In this document: one piece after another, positions 4,320 through 53,857 of the stretch
Position numbering within the stretch: the stretch's first letter is position 1
Layout of the letters: every line of letters starts with the position of its first letter
The notes under the pieces: generated by a model
What the model was told of the DNA's origin: nothing
Databases searched by the model: none
What the model saw: only the letters and a program-made list of their open reading frames with translations
Program-made: the position numbers and the translations under genes
Source: Methanoregula boonei 6A8
GTDB lineage: Archaea > Halobacteriota > Methanomicrobia > Methanomicrobiales > Methanospirillaceae
DNA: 64,000 nucleotides
Assembly (NCBI RefSeq): GCF_000017625.1
Contig: NC_009712.1
Coordinates: 1,984,001 to 2,048,000 of the forward strand
Direction of reading: 5' to 3'

Positions 4320-7100
4320 TTGAGCGAATTTGATCTGGGCACATTCGAGAAGGAAGCACACGAGCGGTGGGCGCGGGCGTTCGAGTCCAACCCCTCGGAC
4401 CGCGAGAAGTTTTACATAACGGTCGCATTCCCGTACCCGAGCGGCGCAATGCACGTCGGTCATGGGCGTACCTATATCGCTCCCGATGTTATCGCACGGT
4501 TCTGGCGGATGCGGGGAAAACAGGTGCTCTTCCCCATGGCATTCCACGTCACGGGCGCACCGGTAGTCGGGATCTCGAAAAGGATTGCACGAAACGACCC
4601 AAAGACAATCCATCTGTACCGCGACCTCTATAAAGTCCCGCAAAACGTGCTCGCGGAGTTTACCGACCCGCTGACCATTGTCAAGCACTTTGCGGCAGAG
4701 TACCAGCGCGTGATGACCTCCTGCGGCCTTTCGATAGACTGGCGCCGGCGCTTCATCACGGTCGACCCGACCTACAGCAAATTCGTCGAGTGGCAGTGGA
4801 AGCACCTGTACGAGGCCGGCCACGTAATGAAAGGGGTCCACCCGGTCCGGTACTGCACAGTGGATGAGAATCCGGTCGGGGACCACGACCTGCTCGAAGG
4901 GGACAAGGCAGAGGTGATCAAATTCACGCTCGTCATGTTCCACTATGGCGATGCCCTCATCCCCACCGCCACCCTCCGCCCCGAGACCATCCACGGGGTC
5001 ACCAACCTCTGGGCCAACCCGAACGTGACCTACGTCCGTGCAATCATCGATGGCAAACCGTGGATTGTCTCAAAAGAAGCAGCAGAAAAACTCTCACTTC
5101 AGGACCACACCGTCGAGATCGAGAATGAGATTCCCGGAAAGGATCTCATCGACAAGACCGTCACCCACCCTCTCTGCGGCACGGTTCCGATCCTCCCGGC
5201 CGATTTCGTGGATCCCGACATGGCAACCGGTATGGTCATGAGCGTTCCCGCCCATGCACCATTTGACTATATCGCGCTCCGCGACCTCCAGCAGCAGGGC
5301 AAATACACCACGATCAAGCCGGTCCCGCTGATCAAAGTCGAGGGTTACGGTGAAGTCCCTGCCCAGGATGCAGTTGAGCGGGCAGGGATCAAACACCAGA
5401 TGGACAGCCGGATGGATACCCTCACTCAGGAGATCTATTCTGCGGAATTTTCGAAGGGAAAACTTTTCGAGAAATACGGCGGAAAGCCGGTCCGGGTGGC
5501 TCGCGACGAGGTCGCTCAGGAGATGTGCGAAAAGTACGGCTCGGTCGTGATGTACGAGTTCGATACCCGCCCCGTGATCTGCCGGTGCGGCAACAAAGTC
5601 AGGGTCAAGATCCTCCACGATCAGTGGTTCCTGAAGTACAGCGATCCCGTATGGAAGGAGCAGGCGGGTACCCATATCAACGATATGGCGCTTGTCCCAC
5701 CCGAGGTCAGGGCCGAGTTTGACCGTACTGTCGGCTGGCTCAAGGACTGGGCCTGCACCCGGCGCGTTGGCCTTGGTACCCGGTTCCCGTGGGACCCGGC
5801 CCAGCTGATCGAGCCACTCTCCGATTCAACCGTGTACATGGCATACTACACGATCGCCCACAAGATCCGTGAGCTCGATCCCAAACTTCTTACCCCGGCG
5901 GTCTTTGATTACATCTTCCTCGGGAAGAAGTCCCCCGACCTTCCCGAGAAGAAAAAACTGGACGCGATGAGGGAGGAATTCCTGTACTGGTACCCGTACG
6001 ACTACCGGTTCTCGGCAAAGGACCTCATCAGCAACCACCTCACCTTCCAGATTTTCCATCATGTGACCATCTTCCCCAAGGACAAGCTCCCCAAAGGCAT
6101 GGTGGTCTTCGGCATGGGCCTGTTGAATGGTGCGAAGATGTCATCCTCGAAGGGGAATGTCTTCTTGCTCGAAGATGCCGTAAGCGAGTTCGGGGCCGAC
6201 ACGGTCAGGATGTTTTTGACCGGCAGTGCCGAACCCTGGCAGGATTTCGACTGGAGAAACGAGCTCGTTCTCTCCACCAAAAAGCAAATCGAACGGGTCT
6301 ACTCTACGATCATGGAGATCAAGGACACCGGTGGCGAGCCCCAGGACATCGATCGCTGGCTGATCAGCCGGCTCCAGGAGCACATTGCAAAAGCAACAGC
6401 GGCCCTTGAGAACTTCCAGACCCGGCAGGCGCTCCAGGAAGCATCATTCGGCATCGAGACCGACATGAAATGGTACCGCCGCCGGCTGCCCGCGAATTGC
6501 GATGGCAGCAGGGAACTGGCCAACCTCTGTTCGGCCTGGACACGGCTCCTTTCACCCTTTATCCCGTTCACTGCCGAGCACCTATGGAAAGAGTTGGGCA
6601 ACAAGGATCTTGTCTCCTTTGCTGAATGGCCGGTCGCAGATGAAAAACTGGTCAACACAAGAATCGAGCTCGCAGAAGAGCTCCTTGCCCGGACCGTGGA
6701 GGACATTGAGTCGATCAAAAAACTCATCCAGATCACACCCAAGTCCCTCAGTATCGTGCTCGCACCTGCATGGAAGCATGAGGTTTTTAAGACCATCGCA
6801 AAGTCCAGCGACCGCAACACCGTGCTCAAGGAGATCATGAAGGACGAGAGCATGAAGAGGCGGGGCAAAGAAGCCACCGACGCTGCAAAACAGTGCACCA
6901 CACTCATCCACCGCCTGCCCCCGCACGTGGTTACGTCTCTTGCGCAGGAATCAATCAACGAGCGGGCAGTCTTTGAGGCGGCCCAGGCTTTCCTCGAACA
7001 CGAACTCGGCGTGCCAGTTCACATCATGGATGCGGAGTCAAGCGGTCATGCCAAGGGGGCAACCGCTCTGCCATTCAAGCCGGCAATTGTAATCGAGTAA
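4320..7100 (+). CDS. leuS: leucyl-tRNA synthetase
   Basis: A 926-residue class Ia synthetase that charges tRNA-Leu in the cytoplasm. The HIGH signature is HVGH (45-48, within [10 protein letters not shown]) and the KMSKS loop is KMSSSKGN near 606. The insertion between them is the editing domain, and the length fits archaeal LeuRS. The start codon appears to be TTG 4320, preceded by an AGGGAAGG ribosome-binding region. Poly-T tracts follow the stop directly, so transcription of the upstream two-gene unit probably ends here. Confidence 0.97.
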
Positions 7101-7103
7101 GTA

Positions 7104-7123
7104 TTCTTTTTTGATTCTTTTTT
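7104..7123 (+). terminator. poly-T terminator after leuS
   Basis: Two T-rich tracts (six and seven T) within 25 bases of the leuS stop codon match archaeal intrinsic terminators. No stem is needed. The remaining 260 bases to the next gene are G/C-rich and non-coding, with the palindrome CCTCGCGAGG near 7242. Confidence 0.6.
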
Positions 7124-7381
7124 ACAGAAAAATACGCCTGAAACAGGTACACTCTGGAGTCGATGAGAGAGACCGACCACCACCCTTCTCCGCCATCGCC
7201 CCCCTTCCACAAGGTGTGGCTGCGGGCGGAATGAGGGGGGCCTCCTCGCGAGGGATGCGATGGTTCCTTGTTTTGCAGGGTGGGCGGGTTCATTCTCTTA
7301 TATTTCGGAGAGATCGCTGACGACCTGCACCGCCCGGATGTGTGAGGCCCCCGTATCGGAAAGAGATCGACCGTTGTGTTA

Positions 7382-7903
7382 TCACGCATATCCACCCTTA
7401 ACCGTCTCCCCCCGGTACCCGTGTCCGGCAAGAATCGCACAAACACTATTTACCCACGTGGGATCGCCACAGTGTGTTGCCGGGCAGGGCAAGGGTTTAA
7501 CCTCATCATTCCATATCGTGGTGAGCACAGGATCAGCAGTCTGGATATCCGCCCGCCCGACCATCCGGCCTGCTGGCTCACCCTTCGAATTGTAGATAAT
7601 CATATGATAGCACCGGAACTCCCGGCATATCTGGGGCCGGGTGGAATAGATTGCACAGACCTGCCCGGGGCCATGTGGATTGCGGCGCAGGAAGATGCAA
7701 CCCGGGCGGGAGCCGGCGGAACCCGTGGTGAAGTCCTCATCAATCTCCTCCGCGAACTCCGGCGCCACATGAACGGGAGAGATCTCCCCCGTGATCGTGT
7801 TCCTGCAATAATAGTCCATGTCTGAAAGCTGCCGCTCAATCCGGATATATCTGCCAAGGCTGGTACAGCACTTCCCGCAGTGATCACAGACAAACAAGAC
7901 CAT
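7382..7903 (-). CDS. YkgJ-type cysteine-cluster protein
   Basis: A 173-residue protein with the YkgJ/UPF0153 pattern: CDHCGKCC near the N-terminus, GCIFL in the middle, then CAIYSTRPQICREFRC. The Cys set is thought to bind zinc or an iron-sulfur cluster in this family, whose biochemical role is unknown. The start is placed at the ATG giving MVLFVCDHCG, because earlier in-frame codons add a non-conserved tail. It lies 68 bases downstream of the DUF5611-like gene on the same strand. Confidence 0.8.
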   Translation of the reverse strand: MVLFVCDHCGKCCTSLGRYIRIERQLSDMDYYCRNTITGEISPVHVAPEFAEEIDEDFTTGSAGSRPGCIFLRRNPHGPGQVCAIYSTRPQICREFRCYHMIIYNSKGEPAGRMVGRADIQTADPVLTTIWNDEVKPLPCPATHCGDPTWVNSVCAILAGHGYRGETVKGGYA

Positions 7904-7971
7904 CGGGCACCGGTTACCGGTAATGAATACGCAGAGAAGACGGGGGAAAAACAAGATCGGAGAGGAGAGCG

Positions 7972-8289
7972 TTATTCCCCTTCTACGCTCTTTGCCCGCT
8001 TTACCCGTTCCTTGGTGGAAAAACCTGTGGCCGCATCAAGGAATTTCCTGAATCGCTTGTTCGTGTCGATAATCACCTCATCGCTTGCCGAGATGTCGGA
8101 TTCAGTGTCCACCCGGAGAGTCTTTCCCCCGGCGCCGATCGTTGCTTCCAGTTTTTTTAAGGCACCGAACCGGATCCGGTACGTGCTCCCGGACTTCTCC
8201 GGCTCAATTCCAAAGCAGTTCCTGAGCTCCGTGAAAACGCGCTGTTCGAGATCTTTTGTGAGGCCTCGCTTGATGGGGTACTCCTGCAT
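7972..8289 (-). CDS. DUF5611-like small archaeal protein
   Basis: A 105-residue cytoplasmic protein starting MQEYPIKRGLT, with alternating charged strands and a Lys/Arg-rich C-terminus. The opening and length resemble the DUF5611 family of methanogens. No catalytic motif is visible and its function is unknown. It is divergent from the PAC2 gene with about 20 bases between starts, so the two promoters must overlap. Confidence 0.65.
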   Translation of the reverse strand: MQEYPIKRGLTKDLEQRVFTELRNCFGIEPEKSGSTYRIRFGALKKLEATIGAGGKTLRVDTESDISASDEVIIDTNKRFRKFLDAATGFSTKERVKRAKSVEGE

Positions 8290-8309
8290 ACTACTTTTTT
8301 AGGTACTGC

Positions 8310-9053
8310 GTGTATGTTAACTTAATGACACCCGAATCTTCTCACGACCTCATGATATTTGCCAACCCCCCACCGGGCGAGGGCGCTGCGGTTCTGATGG
8401 GATTCCCCGGGAGCGGCCTTGTGGGCACAATCGCCCTCCAGTACATGGTCGATCAGCTCGAATTCGATCTGGTCGGCACGATGACCTCCCGGTACTTCCC
8501 TCCTCTCGCCATGATGAACAAAGGCGTTGTCAACGATCCCGTACGGTTGTACATGAAAAACGATATTGCTGCTATCGTGGCCGATATCCCTATTCACCCT
8601 ATGATCTGCTACGAGATCTCGACAGGTATTCTCGACTGGCTTGCCCCCTTAAAGCCTAAGGAGGTGCTCACGATTGCCGGGATAGTCACCAACGAGTCGG
8701 AAAAACGGGTCTTTGGCGTTGCAACGACTCCCGAAGCACTCACCCGGATCCAGGATCACACCCTCGTCCTCCCAATCGGGAGTATTTCGGGGATCGCTTC
8801 GAGTATTCTCACGGGATGCAAGATCCGGAATATCCCGGGGTACGGCCTCTTGGGCGAAACGGTAAATGCGCCCGACCCGCGATCCTCTGCAGCAACTATC
8901 GAGGTACTCAACAAGATGTACAATCTGGGCCTCGATATCAAGCCACTCCTTGAGCAGGCCGAGGAAATTGAGCAGAGTATGCACCGGATCTCAGAAGAGG
9001 TCCAGCAGTCCGCAGATACCTCGCCCAAAAAAGATCTGCCAATGTACGGGTGA
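8310..9053 (+). CDS. proteasome assembly chaperone (PAC2) family protein
   Basis: A 247-residue PAC2-family protein. The GFPGSGLVGTIALQYMV segment corresponds to the conserved glycine-rich turn, and the C-terminal third is a charged helix. Archaeal members resemble proteasome assembly chaperones, but their clients are mostly unproven. GTG 8310 has AGGT upstream; ATG 8325 is an equally plausible start. A second paralogue lies at 32046-32804. The DUF473 gene follows 6 bases after the stop, which indicates an operon. Confidence 0.85.
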   Translation: MYVNLMTPESSHDLMIFANPPPGEGAAVLMGFPGSGLVGTIALQYMVDQLEFDLVGTMTSRYFPPLAMMNKGVVNDPVRLYMKNDIAAIVADIPIHPMICYEISTGILDWLAPLKPKEVLTIAGIVTNESEKRVFGVATTPEALTRIQDHTLVLPIGSISGIASSILTGCKIRNIPGYGLLGETVNAPDPRSSAATIEVLNKMYNLGLDIKPLLEQAEEIEQSMHRISEEVQQSADTSPKKDLPMYG

Positions 9054-9059
9054 CCTGTT

Positions 9060-9458
9060 ATGAAATGCGCAGCATTAACCGGAATTTCGCCCGATCTTAT
9101 CCGGGATCTCCGGGCCGGACGGCCCCGAACACTCGAATTCCAGAGCACACAGAATATCATTACTATCGCAAATATCGATGCCGGACCCGAAGCCCATATC
9201 TTCCTGACCTCCATTGATGCCGAGGACCTGGGACCCGGGGATGCAGGAATCTGCGTCGAAGTTCTCTCCTCATCTATCTCCATGAAGCGGGTCGTGGAAT
9301 ATGCACAAGGAATCTATTACGAGGAACGGGAGCGGATGTCAGCCCGGGTGCAGGTGAAGTACTGCTTCTCGTCCACGGTTCGGGAAGTCTTCCGCGAAAA
9401 GCTCTGCGCCCCGACATTTGTGGAAGTGCTAAAATCATCATGTTACCATGCCGGCTGA
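9060..9458 (+). CDS. DUF473 family protein
   Basis: A 132-residue protein (MKCAALTGIS...) that fits DUF473, a family of unknown function found mainly in methanogens. It is soluble, with no membrane segments. Two C-terminal cysteines (KLCAPT, SSCYHAG) are not in a CxxC pair. It starts 6 bases after the PAC2 gene and is probably translated from the same transcript. Confidence 0.75.
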   Translation: MKCAALTGISPDLIRDLRAGRPRTLEFQSTQNIITIANIDAGPEAHIFLTSIDAEDLGPGDAGICVEVLSSSISMKRVVEYAQGIYYEERERMSARVQVKYCFSSTVREVFREKLCAPTFVEVLKSSCYHAG

Positions 9459-48794: not shown

Positions 48795-48986
48795 TTAGTC
48801 GTACTTTCCTTTAGGATGAAACCATCCAGTAAAACCACAATAAAGGCAACCCACTCCTTCGCACTCGGGACAGACTTTCTTGGGTGCCTGCACAAGAACG
48901 GTACCGGTCCCATTGCAATAGGAACAGCCTAGTCCGCCGCAATGTCCGCAGATTGCTGGTTCGTAAGTTACCCAATCAGTTACCAT
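48795..48986 (-). CDS. small CxxC-rich zinc protein (DnaJ-finger-like)
   Basis: A 63-residue protein with CGHCGGLGCSYCNGTG and CPECEGVGCLYCGFTG. These resemble the CxxCxGxG repeats of DnaJ-type zinc fingers, with two repeats compacted. It lies 21 bases downstream of the receptor kinase gene and is likely cotranscribed. No J-domain is present. Its role in that operon is unknown; zinc binding is inferred from the cysteine pairs. Confidence 0.75.
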   Translation of the reverse strand: MVTDWVTYEPAICGHCGGLGCSYCNGTGTVLVQAPKKVCPECEGVGCLYCGFTGWFHPKGKYD

Positions 48987-49007
48987 CACAATTTTGACCG
49001 CGATTCT

Positions 49008-51131
49008 TTATTCATCGTCCTCATCAAGATAACGGGAAAGAGCATTAAGCAATTCGTCAGCGGACTGGTACCGGTCCGCAGGATTTTTTGCAAGACATTT
49101 AAGGATAATTTTTTCCACGACTTCCGCATCGGGATTGTACTCGGTGGGAGGGAGGGGATCATCCCGAACAATAGCGTTTCCAACTTCAACAATGCTGTCC
49201 CCGCCAAAGGGGATGGACCCCGTGACCAGCTCGTAAAAGAGCGCCCCCAGTTGGTATATATCGGTACGGATATCAGTTCTGCCAAACTCGGCCGGGGAGA
49301 CCTGTTCAGGTGCAGCGTACGAAAGAGAGAAACCGGCAACATTGGATTTGTCCATGGTAGTTGCGATGACTTTACTCATGCCCCAGTCAGTGATCTTGGG
49401 AACAAAATCGCTGGTTACAAGGATGTTGTGCGGCTTGATGTCACGATGAATGATTCCGTGGGTATGGGCGTATGCCAGACCGTCTGCTATCCCGTGCACC
49501 AGATGAACCGCCTTCCAGACCGGAAGGGGTTTTTCCACGGACTCCAGGGAACCGGGCACATATTCCATTTCCACATAGGGAACCGGGAGGATGTTAACCT
49601 CCAGCACTTCGACAATATTTTTGTGACGGAGTGTCTGCCATGCAGCAATCTCGTTAAGGAAACATTTACCGGTCACTTCATCAAAGCTGATCGGTATCTT
49701 GACTGCTACGAGAAGGTTATCGGATTTTCGATGCGCGGCAAAGACCTGCGCCACGCCCCCCCGGCCGATATGCCGGATGTCACTATACCTGCTCTCAAGT
49801 TCCGGCGGGAAGTAAAACTTCGATCCTGCTGAGGGCAGAGCTGATTCCCGAGAGGCAGTGATCACTTCGGTCTCAAGGGCAGGAACGGTCTCCATAGGGC
49901 CGGTGTCGAGAGGGGGCTTACTATATACTAAGGATTCGTCAACGTGGTGTGATGCGTGAACCTGACGAGACGGAGTATCGTCGATATTTACCGGGGCAGA
50001 GAGTACCTGACCTTTATGCTGTGAACGGGACCGGATGAAGAGCATCCCCCCAACTCCAACAATACCGATCAGGATTATAATTATGACCAGAGTTACGAGA
50101 TCCCTGCCGGGGTGGCTCCCAGGCAGAGAAGTACTCTCCTCGGGAATTGATACTTGTCCGGTGGCAGGTGCAGTTACTGAGGGGGATGATGGCGGGGTAA
50201 TCGTCCCTGTCCCGGATGCCGCCGAACTGATCTGCAGATAATAATCAATAGGATCCATGAGGGGAGCCGGATCGATTTCGTTGCCAGAGCCGGCATTTCC
50301 AGAAATCCGGGCAGATTCAGAACGTATGATATACGATGCATCACCTACCCCATCAGAGTTCTGATCTCCGGTCCCCCGGTAATCACTCCAGTAATTTCCC
50401 AGTTGCCGGGTAAACGATCGTCCCATATACGTATAGGTCAGACTTGACGGCGATTCCCACTGCTGGCCGCTGCCCCGGGACACAACATTTACCGTATTGG
50501 AAAAGGAGTTAAGGTAGATCGTGTTAGCACCGGAGAGCTCATCAATGGATATCCCGATAGCATTGTTTGTCAGCCGGTTCCCATAGATCAGGTTACCCTG
50601 GGCATCCTTGAGCACAATGCCCGCCCGGCTGTTGGCAGTTATCGTATTTCCGGTCACCCAGTTGCTATTTGTAGAAGAGAGCTGGATCCCTACTGCATTA
50701 CCGGTAAGAGTGTTGTTGGAGATCGTATTCCCGTTCGAGGCAACTAGAATCCCGCTCGCCTCCGCACTGTTCCGGATAACAAAACCCTGAACGGAACAAT
50801 TGTCAGCATCGATCTCAACAGCGGTTCCTTTCCTTCCGGGATCTATAACCGGCGCTCCTCCACCGGTATCCATCCCAATCAGCGTGATCCTTTTATCGAT
50901 TTTGACTGTCCCCGGGTAGGTCCCGCTCTTCACCACAATGGTATCGAGAGGCGACGCCCATGTCACTGCATTCTGGATACTGGTAAAGCTGCCTCCGGAT
51001 GGTGCAACCACGTATTCCGCTCCTGCAGCTGGAGGGACAAAAGATGCGATAATAAGCAATACCGCTGCGCTGATAATAAGGATCCATGCCGGGATGCAGG
51101 TCTTAATGGGGTCAATTCTTTTCTGGATCAT
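49008..51131 (-). CDS. membrane Ser/Thr protein kinase with NosD-like beta-helix ectodomain
   Basis: A 707-residue single-pass receptor kinase. An N-terminal signal/membrane helix precedes right-handed beta-helix repeats (about 45-300; GIQLSSTNSNWVTGNTI and similar), as in NosD or pectate-lyase folds. A second membrane helix (about 344-367) leads to a cytoplasmic kinase domain (about 450-700). Key kinase motifs are glycine loop GRGGVAQVF, VAVKIP Lys, HRDIKPHN and TDWG in place of DFG. All catalytic residues except that variant are intact. The beta-helix probably senses a surface glycan or ion. The upstream neighbour has a phosphothreonine-binding FHA domain. Confidence 0.9.
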   Translation of the reverse strand: MIQKRIDPIKTCIPAWILIISAAVLLIIASFVPPAAGAEYVVAPSGGSFTSIQNAVTWASPLDTIVVKSGTYPGTVKIDKRITLIGMDTGGGAPVIDPGRKGTAVEIDADNCSVQGFVIRNSAEASGILVASNGNTISNNTLTGNAVGIQLSSTNSNWVTGNTITANSRAGIVLKDAQGNLIYGNRLTNNAIGISIDELSGANTIYLNSFSNTVNVVSRGSGQQWESPSSLTYTYMGRSFTRQLGNYWSDYRGTGDQNSDGVGDASYIIRSESARISGNAGSGNEIDPAPLMDPIDYYLQISSAASGTGTITPPSSPSVTAPATGQVSIPEESTSLPGSHPGRDLVTLVIIIILIGIVGVGGMLFIRSRSQHKGQVLSAPVNIDDTPSRQVHASHHVDESLVYSKPPLDTGPMETVPALETEVITASRESALPSAGSKFYFPPELESRYSDIRHIGRGGVAQVFAAHRKSDNLLVAVKIPISFDEVTGKCFLNEIAAWQTLRHKNIVEVLEVNILPVPYVEMEYVPGSLESVEKPLPVWKAVHLVHGIADGLAYAHTHGIIHRDIKPHNILVTSDFVPKITDWGMSKVIATTMDKSNVAGFSLSYAAPEQVSPAEFGRTDIRTDIYQLGALFYELVTGSIPFGGDSIVEVGNAIVRDDPLPPTEYNPDAEVVEKIILKCLAKNPADRYQSADELLNALSRYLDEDDE

Positions 51132-51204
51132 GGCTCATTCATGGGTGGAGGCAAAGGGTGAAGGGGGGGAAGAATCTGTTACATTATTAGAAGGATTACT
51201 TATA

Positions 51205-51990
51205 TTATGGGCTTTTGGGGATAATTAACAGCATCTTTGTCCCGGCCGGGCCTTTTGCCAGTTCCAGCAGATCGCCATCGTGAATCTGGACGGGGGTATT
51301 GCGCTCCAGTCGCGCATTGTTCAGCATCGATCCACCGGTACTCCCACAATCTTCATAATACCATCCGTCTTTTCTCTGGAGGAATCTGCCGTGAGGTTTT
51401 GAGATCCGGGTGACCGCAGTATAGGATCCGGAAATTTCAACATCGCTGTCTCCGGTTGCCCCGGCGGGGCGTTCGGGATCGCTGCGCCCGACCCGTACTC
51501 CGTCGTTCCTCAACAGGAATGTTTTGCCATCATCATGACCGCCAAGGATAATTACTGCGGGAACATTCCCGAGCACTTCCTTGGAGAGAGTATTTTTGAC
51601 CGATTCCAGCCGACGTGATATTTCCCCACCGATAATCTGGACTCTGGTGTTGGAGAAGAGTCCGAGATTCCGGATAATGGATTCAAGACCTCCTGGGACA
51701 AGAGAATACTGCCAGACCGGGTGAATCCCTTTGGACGTCGGGGAGCCTAAACCAGCCTCCTTTTTTATCACACCAATACTCATGAGTTTGTCCAGATGTT
51801 TCTTGGTATTTTCATAGCTGGTCTCAATCTCATGGGAGATAGCCCGCGCATCCCGGGGTTTCTTTTCGAGAAACTTAACAATCCTCAATCGGGCGCTGCT
51901 CGATAAAACATCGAGATATTCCGAGAGTTCATCGAGAGAATCCTCCGTATCCTCAACGACAATTGTGGGAGACTTGTCTGCCGGGTCCAT
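51205..51990 (-). CDS. winged-helix regulator fused to FHA domain
   Basis: A protein of about 261 residues with an ArsR-type winged helix (about 20-105; LSSSARLRIVKFLEKKPRDARAI). A C-terminal FHA domain (about 165-255) follows with GRSDPERP, the conserved SYTAVTRISKPHGRF stretch and GSTGGSMLNN. FHA domains bind phosphothreonine, so kinase signals could switch its DNA binding. ATG 51990 has AGGAA upstream and heads the operon; the kinase gene follows after 73 bases. Confidence 0.9.
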   Translation of the reverse strand: MDPADKSPTIVVEDTEDSLDELSEYLDVLSSSARLRIVKFLEKKPRDARAISHEIETSYENTKKHLDKLMSIGVIKKEAGLGSPTSKGIHPVWQYSLVPGGLESIIRNLGLFSNTRVQIIGGEISRRLESVKNTLSKEVLGNVPAVIILGGHDDGKTFLLRNDGVRVGRSDPERPAGATGDSDVEISGSYTAVTRISKPHGRFLQRKDGWYYEDCGSTGGSMLNNARLERNTPVQIHDGDLLELAKGPAGTKMLLIIPKSP

Positions 51991-52234
51991 ATTCTTCCTG
52001 AGAGATACGTTGCTTTGTCCTCCTATAACCCTATGCACGTTCCAAGCCCGGATTCACTGAATCCGATCATGATTACACAATAAGGTTATTGTATAACCCG
52101 CGGGTTCAATGGTCTAACCGGCTTCATGGGGGCAATATAAGTGACGCTGCATGTAACTATGAGATCAGGTGATAGCCGGAAATGTTTTCGGTGTGTCACC
52201 GACCCATGAACAAAAAACGGATGGAGCACGTACA

Positions 52235-52933: not shown

Positions 52934-53857
52934 TTATCTTTTCTTTTTCTGCACAGGGTGAATTATGGTGAAAAACCCTACAATTCCCACAGCGCTCACT
53001 GATACCCATCCCGGAATCGGAGATTTCTTTGTCGCCGTAGATATTGGCGTATATGTCACAAGCGGATGTGTCGTCGCAGTCTGATTAATAGAGTACGTTG
53101 GCTGGGTGATGACAGGTTGCTGGGTTTCCGTTACTGATGCGGCAGGTGCAGGAACAGTTAGCCGGACATTATCGATCCACCCTATTGCGTACAATCCCAT
53201 AGTACCGTAATCGCCAACATTACCCAGATAGATCCTGTTCATTCCCTTGAGGGGGGATTGTGAAGTGATATAGTAACTCCAGAGAGGTTGACCGGTCTGT
53301 TTATTTGTAACCGTCTCGGTGATGATGTTTGTATCGTTGTTATAATCGACCTTGACATGGTATGTAGTATTCAATTCGAAGTTAACAGTCTGCCCGCCAT
53401 AGGAAGATAGCTCACTGGTTACTTCTTCCTGAATGGCACTGGGGGAGACTGTGTGGAGCACCATAATCAGACCATTTTTATTATTGGTGAACGCAGTTAT
53501 CACGTTGGGGCCCTTGTTGAAGTCCATATCGGTGCCGGTAAAGCCCAGTCTGAATGTGGCACCGGGATCCATTTGCACGAAGAGGATATCGTACTCCAGT
53601 GTGAATGATCCACCATTGAAACTGATTGCTGACGAGTATGCATAATTGCCGGTACTTGGCTCGATTCCAAAATGGTACATCTCCTGAGTGGAATCCCAGT
53701 AATCCGATGAAGGATTGTTGGTGGTCCACTGGGGATTTGATGCAAAGTTCTCCTGATAGAGAACGCCTGGTGTTGCCGAATCTGCCTGAACAGGACTTAC
53801 CAGGGTGATGACTGCGGCAGCCAGCACCAGAAGCAGGAAAAAGCGGATGTTTCTCAC
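52934..53857 (-). CDS. secreted surface protein with lectin-like domain and C-terminal anchor
   Basis: A 307-residue protein with a signal peptide (1-25), a beta-sandwich region (about 35-235; SFTLEYDILFVQMDPG and WIDNVRLTVPAP) resembling LamG/concanavalin-type modules, a Thr/Pro-rich stalk and a terminal membrane helix with a KKKR tail. It is probably displayed on the S-layer side. Ligand and exact family are unknown. Confidence 0.65.
   Translation of the reverse strand: MRNIRFFLLLVLAAAVITLVSPVQADSATPGVLYQENFASNPQWTTNNPSSDYWDSTQEMYHFGIEPSTGNYAYSSAISFNGGSFTLEYDILFVQMDPGATFRLGFTGTDMDFNKGPNVITAFTNNKNGLIMVLHTVSPSAIQEEVTSELSSYGGQTVNFELNTTYHVKVDYNNDTNIITETVTNKQTGQPLWSYYITSQSPLKGMNRIYLGNVGDYGTMGLYAIGWIDNVRLTVPAPAASVTETQQPVITQPTYSINQTATTHPLVTYTPISTATKKSPIPGWVSVSAVGIVGFFTIIHPVQKKKR

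Follow-up and report, generated by a model that had tools for sequence, protein, structure and literature searches.

Three neighbouring genes in Methanoregula boonei 6A8 raise the question of how a serine/threonine kinase at the surface of an archaeal cell might address a DNA-binding protein. To our knowledge, the signal or the transcription target is known for few Ser/Thr kinases of archaea. The genes lie in a row on the minus strand (51990..48795) of the window, the 64,000-nucleotide stretch analysed here, which belongs to the single 2,542,943-bp contig of this genome; they encode a regulator, then a kinase and then a CxxC protein. A preliminary description had recognized in them an FHA-winged-helix protein, a kinase and a CxxC-rich protein, closely spaced on one strand, and had proposed that a surface signal reaches the DNA-bound regulator in one phosphorylation step. 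The layout is borne out by the open reading frames and Pfam matches, and the phosphorylation step can now be narrowed to one putative site, Thr9 (T9) of the regulator.

The gene cluster and its products

The first gene (51205..51990, ATG start) encodes a winged-helix and FHA regulator of 261 residues, assigned from its reading frame, its Pfam matches and its orthologues in the order Methanomicrobiales. After a gap of 73 bp follows a receptor-type Ser/Thr kinase of 707 residues (49008..51131), recognized by its Pfam Pkinase (E=2.7e-40) and NosD (E=4.6e-32) matches, its catalytic residues and an AlphaFold model. The third gene (48795..48986), ~20 bp further on and with an ATG start one codon past a GTG, encodes a CxxCxGxG-type cysteine-rich protein of 63 residues with two CxxC-type zinc-knuckle-like repeats and a weak likeness to anti-TRAP. 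It was found only as a third gene adjoining the pair, in Methanoregula and in a single neighbouring genus, which makes it a clade-specific accessory. A secreted, probably membrane-anchored protein is encoded upstream of the pair at 52934-53857 (minus strand); its place is kept in most Methanoregula loci, and it is a possible target or partner of the pair.

A receptor kinase with an interchangeable sensor

The kinase is a single-pass membrane protein with a NosD-like ectodomain and intact HRDxKxxN residues, as originally described. A right-handed beta-helix at residues 39-242 (50406..51017), matched by the Pfam NosD and Beta_helix profiles and modelled by AlphaFold with high pLDDT, forms the extracytoplasmic sensor. 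It is followed by a transmembrane helix at residues 343-371 (50019..50105; hydropathy and AlphaFold helix), a disordered juxtamembrane linker at residues 372-440 (49812..50018; pLDDT < 50 for 369-437) and the kinase domain at residues 441-704 (49020..49811), all on the minus strand. The kinase domain has a GxGG loop and the full Hanks-type Ser/Thr kinase set, comprising K478 (the VAIK Lys), E494 (the alpha-C Glu), HRDIKPHN at 562-569 and D582, which stands in DWG, not DFG; all of these are conserved in the family. The DWG and HRDxKxxN motifs are invariant in nearly all kinases of such pairs, and the kinase domain is intact in nearly every member.

While the kinase core is constant, the region preceding it varies, and the beta-helix ectodomain is thus one choice among several. 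The sensors include a NosD beta-helix with one transmembrane helix in Methanoregula, NosD with several transmembrane helices, PEGA, six or seven transmembrane helices, and a short loop between two transmembrane helices. The ectodomain of the window kinase scored 111.6 vs 23.6 bits with the NosD profile PF05048 and missed the NCBIfam NosD maturation family TIGR04247 (118 vs 300); the NosD likeness is one of common fold, with no sign of a copper function.

The regulator and the kinase form a conserved pair

Of 199 Methanomicrobiales genomes, 135 encode the regulator, among them 101 of the 132 genomes of good quality; in this major methanogen order it is present in 31 of the 38 sampled genera, and the gene pair is carried by nearly every family. 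No full-length regulator was detected outside Methanomicrobiales among 393 genomes of the phylum, where winged-helix matches only were obtained. Gene neighbourhoods were surveyed for 112 regulators from ~70 genomes; two of these are the window regulator and its paralogue, and the other 110 come from loci extended downstream by as much as 4 kb. A kinase lies directly downstream on the same strand in 109 of them, at a median gap of 15 bp and within 150 bp in 100 of the 109. The three exceptions are a contig end, a regulator followed by a PP2C gene and one regulator without a kinase. This adjacency is far above chance and marks the pair as a module conserved at the family level. As a general unit, the operon first proposed holds for the regulator-kinase pair across the order; it does not extend to the interchangeable beta-helix or to the clade-specific CxxC gene. 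The preliminary proposal held up against two checks, conservation of the pair in relatives and integrity of the kinase domain.

Paralogous pairs occur: among the sampled pair-bearing genomes 38 have one, 27 have two, four have three and one has four. The window genome contains two FHA domains in total, each in such a regulator adjoining its own kinase. Regulator and kinase distances are correlated (r = 0.82), partly from shared species history. Where a genome has at least two pairs (32 genomes), the two partners agreed in their best match across genomes in 76% of cases, against 47 +/- 4% after shuffling of kinases within genomes (maximum of 300 shuffles, 61%), which is the pattern of cognate pairs. 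Regulator and kinase very probably form one kinase-to-regulator pathway.

An exclusive pairing of this kinase subfamily was rejected, as ~69 of 78 close kinases from 60 genomes are paired. The regulator-less kinases include some members from family f6, G001 and G033 with propeller-, TPR- or TIR-like parts, as read from the sequence, and some of these adjoin PP2C genes. At L214, L215 and L216, same-family kinases have N-terminal parts that read as beta-propeller- or TPR-like, no FHA regulator stands beside them, and those of L214 and L216 adjoin PP2C genes. At L218:2926-4845 (+), a same-family kinase has a TIR-like N-terminal region and is adjoined by a second TIR-like protein. A defence role was considered and rejected, the PADLOC matches being to generic kinase and HTH only.

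PP2C phosphatase genes accompany the pair

In several genera a PP2C gene belongs to the pair cluster, in at least four arrangements. It precedes the regulator and kinase in L064-L067 and L077, follows them in L071 and L072, and lies downstream in L153. At L125:1120-1866 (+), equivalent to L081:6435-7181, a regulator is followed by a PP2C gene and no kinase, and a second regulator-kinase pair lies 2.4 kb further on. The window genome has a PP2C-like gene elsewhere, adjoining its third Hanks-type kinase near 417 kb. This kinase (328 residues, C-terminal transmembrane helix) is encoded in a separate phospho-signalling cluster (L208, G000:C1:411000-423000, 5772-9096) with small proteins that are PII-like by eye, the PP2C-like phosphatase and a transporter-like protein.

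The regulator combines a winged helix with an FHA domain

AlphaFold models the regulator as a disordered N-terminal tail (residues 1-16), a helical winged-helix domain, a disordered linker (residues 110-125) and an FHA sandwich. The winged helix (about residues 25-95; 51706..51918, minus strand) was recognized by Pfam HTH_5 and HTH_45 and by alignment, and contains a near-invariant TSYENTKKHLDKL. It is ArsR-like, and the regulator misses the cut-offs of the ArsR/SmtB family, narrowly for PF01022 (E=2.5e-4; 21.3 bits, just below the 22-bit cut-off) and clearly for NF033788 (23.7 vs 55).

The C-terminal part (about residues 143-258; 51217..51564, minus strand) is an FHA domain by profile, with a PF00498 match of E=5.5e-10 and 40 bits against a curated cut-off of 20.7, and by fold, with Z scores of 15.8-15.9 for DgcB, 15.1 for OdhI, 15.0 for GarA, 14.6 for EmbR and 14.0 for ArnA among solved FHA domains. 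The fold likeness to DgcB, OdhI and GarA is no proof of function. Its characteristic residues are G168, R169, R195, S197, K198, H200, S217, T218, G219 and N224. Aligned to Rad53 FHA1, S197, H200 and T218 fall on canonical residues of the phosphothreonine pocket. R169, the Arg of the GR motif, is invariant, as are the structural H200 and N224; Ser or Thr occupies position 197 in 108 of 110 regulators and position 218 in nearly all. In known FHA domains, the Asn of the NG motif touches the peptide backbone; at its position Gly219 is found in 99 of 107 regulators and Asn in four. This replacement would suit an FHA domain that acts here as a phospho-independent interaction domain, as those of GarA and OdhI do toward their enzymes, with a kinase that is just co-operonic; such interactions of GarA are indicated by the title of Nott et al. 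2009, as cited in PMC5448819. The retention of the pocket residues R169, H200, S/T197 and T/S218, as well as the pairing of the regulator with kinase and PP2C, argue against this explanation, which we regard as very improbable.

Residue 198, directly after S197, is Lys or Arg in 101 of 107 regulators. In ArnA, an Arg at the equivalent position is tied to the reading of doubly phosphorylated motifs (PMC6509490). The S7-P8-T9 sequence of the window tail would fit such a motif, but Ser or Thr stands at position 7 in just 37 of 107 regulators.

An invariant threonine in a drifting tail

The tail (51943..51990, minus strand; pLDDT < 50) carries T9, encoded by 51966..51964, in a T-phi-phi-phi motif followed by acidic residues. 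Thr is found at this position in 107 of 107 full-length regulators, and no other residue among the first 20 exceeds 67% identity. In all 107, position +1 is hydrophobic, an acidic residue occurs at +4 to +8 and T9 lies 16 residues ahead of the near-invariant Tyr25; about half have a basic residue immediately N-terminal of T9. The motif is of T-phi-phi type, and the ETTS motif of the GarA/OdhI type is absent. The placement of the tail in the AlphaFold model is unreliable (pLDDT 35-45). T9 is probably a target of the kinase and, once phosphorylated, a ligand of the FHA domain; What lends this prediction its precision is the parallel with the N-terminal Thr tails of DgcB, OdhI and GarA.

The fixed spacing between T9 and the winged helix counts against such a switch, as it would suit a structural role of the tail too. 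Together with the basic residue ahead of T9 in about half of the members, it would agree with a mechanism resembling that of EmbR, the closest functional precedent (PMC6213207), in which a phosphothreonine on the activated kinase is bound by the FHA domain, phosphorylation by this kinase elsewhere on the regulator (the wing, the linker 110-125 or the FHA surface) alters DNA affinity, and T9 has a structural or DNA-contacting role. Such a route is unlikely, given that T9 is the sole invariant residue of a drifting, disordered tail, with a hydrophobic +1 residue and downstream acids, and that a motif of the same type is enriched in the kinase linker.

A related motif in the kinase linker

The juxtamembrane linkers differ in length and sequence across kinases. 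In a set of 26 kinases sharing under 60% identity, 16 have a T-phi-phi motif in this segment, against 2.3 +/- 1.4 expected, and none of 5000 composition-preserving shuffles reached 16. The reversed motif order (2 vs 2.3) and a Ser version (2 vs 2.4) occur at chance level. The strict motif is absent beside the kinase domain in six related regulator-less kinases, a small sample. It is also missing from the window kinase, whose linker has the degenerate form ETVP and ETEVI. A pair-specific resemblance between the linker motif and the regulator tail was rejected, the likeness within pairs being no greater than that between different pairs (p = 0.43). The invariance of T9 and the presence of the same T-phi-phi motif in the kinase juxtamembrane segment are new here. 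Docking of the regulator to the juxtamembrane segment has, in our estimate, slightly less than an even chance of being correct.

The enriched threonine motif, a disordered linker that could serve as a docking arm and the PP2C linkage would also agree with a scheme in which the phosphorylated kinase holds the regulator at the membrane through its FHA domain, with release alone setting DNA binding and the regulator never being a substrate. We consider this improbable, since it leaves the invariant T9 of the regulator unexplained.

Promoter and candidate operator

Upstream of the operon (all minus strand), a TATA-like element at 52133..52141 (ATAAATA / TATATT) is conserved in position across 18 Methanoregula upstream regions. 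Just downstream of it, the footprint contains two tandem inverted repeats, GGTT-N7-9-AACC (52084..52119), a candidate operator; as GGTT-N9-AACC they are more or less exact across the 18 regions. Upstream of the TATA-like element, an inverted repeat GGTGACAC-N18-TATCACC (52168..52200) is a further candidate site for the regulator, and its TATCACC arm is kept in nearly all of the 18 regions. Each full pattern, the tandem and the N18 repeat, occurs as a single copy in the window genome, at the operon. These repeats are candidate sites of autoregulation. Neither kind of repeat is conserved outside this clade. The GGTT-N9-AACC repeats occur in the Methanoregula group alone and are absent from other families and from the paralogous pair; an order-wide operator was rejected on this ground, and a family-wide DNA site is not claimed.

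A proposed model of the signalling pathway

The combined results suggest a dedicated phosphothreonine relay, to which we assign a probability of roughly 0.58. The beta-helix ectodomain would pick up an envelope or extracellular cue, upon which the PknB-like kinase would activate and autophosphorylate its juxtamembrane linker. The linker phosphothreonine would dock the FHA domain of the regulator encoded next door, and the kinase would next phosphorylate T9 in the regulator tail. Phosphorylated T9 could then engage an FHA domain, either in the same molecule or in a dimer partner, so that the regulator leaves the kinase and its winged helix switches between DNA-binding states. A PP2C phosphatase would reset the regulator. 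The three domains, the intact kinase, the order-wide pairing, the swapped sensors, the paralogous cognate pairs, the PP2C linkage, the invariant T9 and the enriched linker motif are seen in the sequences themselves; from this anatomy and its conservation we infer every phosphorylation and every binding event, their succession, the direction of regulation and autoregulation via the promoter repeats. The replacement of the NG Asn by Gly and the lack of a strict T-phi-phi motif in the window kinase count against the relay. The conserved pair, together with a named phosphosite candidate and a putative operator, opens a complete phospho-relay of archaea to direct tests.

For Methanomicrobiales as a whole, we tentatively propose a modular, insulated, one-step phosphothreonine 'two-component' family, in which interchangeable receptor kinases would each drive a cognate FHA transcription factor via a self-binding phosphothreonine tail, with linker and tail competing for the FHA pocket. 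If true, this would provide a phosphothreonine counterpart to the histidine-kinase two-component systems, one in which sensors are swapped and cognate pairs have paralogues.

Comparison with known systems

A paper describing the regulator-kinase pair was not found in the open-access literature. In its kinase domain, the archaeal protein is akin to PknB and Stk1-type kinases, PknB being the best match of the kinase fold (33-34% identity). It scored 220 bits, below the cut-off of 450, with the PknB/PASTA kinase family (PknB_PASTA_kin, NF033483), and the archaeal kinases differ in having beta-helix (NosD, in the window), PEGA or multi-transmembrane sensors in place of PASTA repeats, and DWG for DFG.

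The pknH and embR genes of Mycobacterium tuberculosis are adjacent, and they likewise encode a membrane Ser/Thr kinase and a regulator combining a winged-helix and an FHA domain; a regulator of this kind stands beside a membrane Ser/Thr kinase in 109 of 112 archaeal cases, and the FHA part of the archaeal regulator has EmbR as one of its best structural matches. Phosphorylation by PknH raises promoter binding by EmbR (PMC6213207). The two systems differ in that EmbR has an OmpR-like winged helix and a BTAD domain, whereas the archaeal regulator has an ArsR-like winged helix and no BTAD domain detected by Pfam, and the archaeal system has an invariant tail Thr and many paralogous pairs with swapped sensors.

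In GarA, OdhI and DgcB, a Thr in a disordered N-terminal tail binds the FHA domain once phosphorylated (PMC5448819, PMC6733907). GarA and OdhI, substrates of PknB or PknG, and DgcB from Bdellovibrio all rank among the top structural matches to the FHA domain. They act by inhibiting enzymes or by making cyclic-di-GMP, not through a DNA-binding domain; the archaeal regulator, in contrast, has a winged helix between tail and FHA domain.

FHA regulators under Ser/Thr kinases are known in archaea from ArnA of Sulfolobus and from ST0829-ST1565 (PMC7226565, PMC6509490). Arg-147 of ArnA matches the Lys or Arg at position 198, where most FHA domains carry Asn, but ArnA has a zinc finger instead of a winged helix, and its partner is ArnB. 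No description of an order-wide pairing with a receptor kinase was found. The pair looks like a previously undescribed surface-to-gene signalling relay and, by analogy, may work like PknH-EmbR with a switch of the GarA/OdhI type, as a member of neither family.
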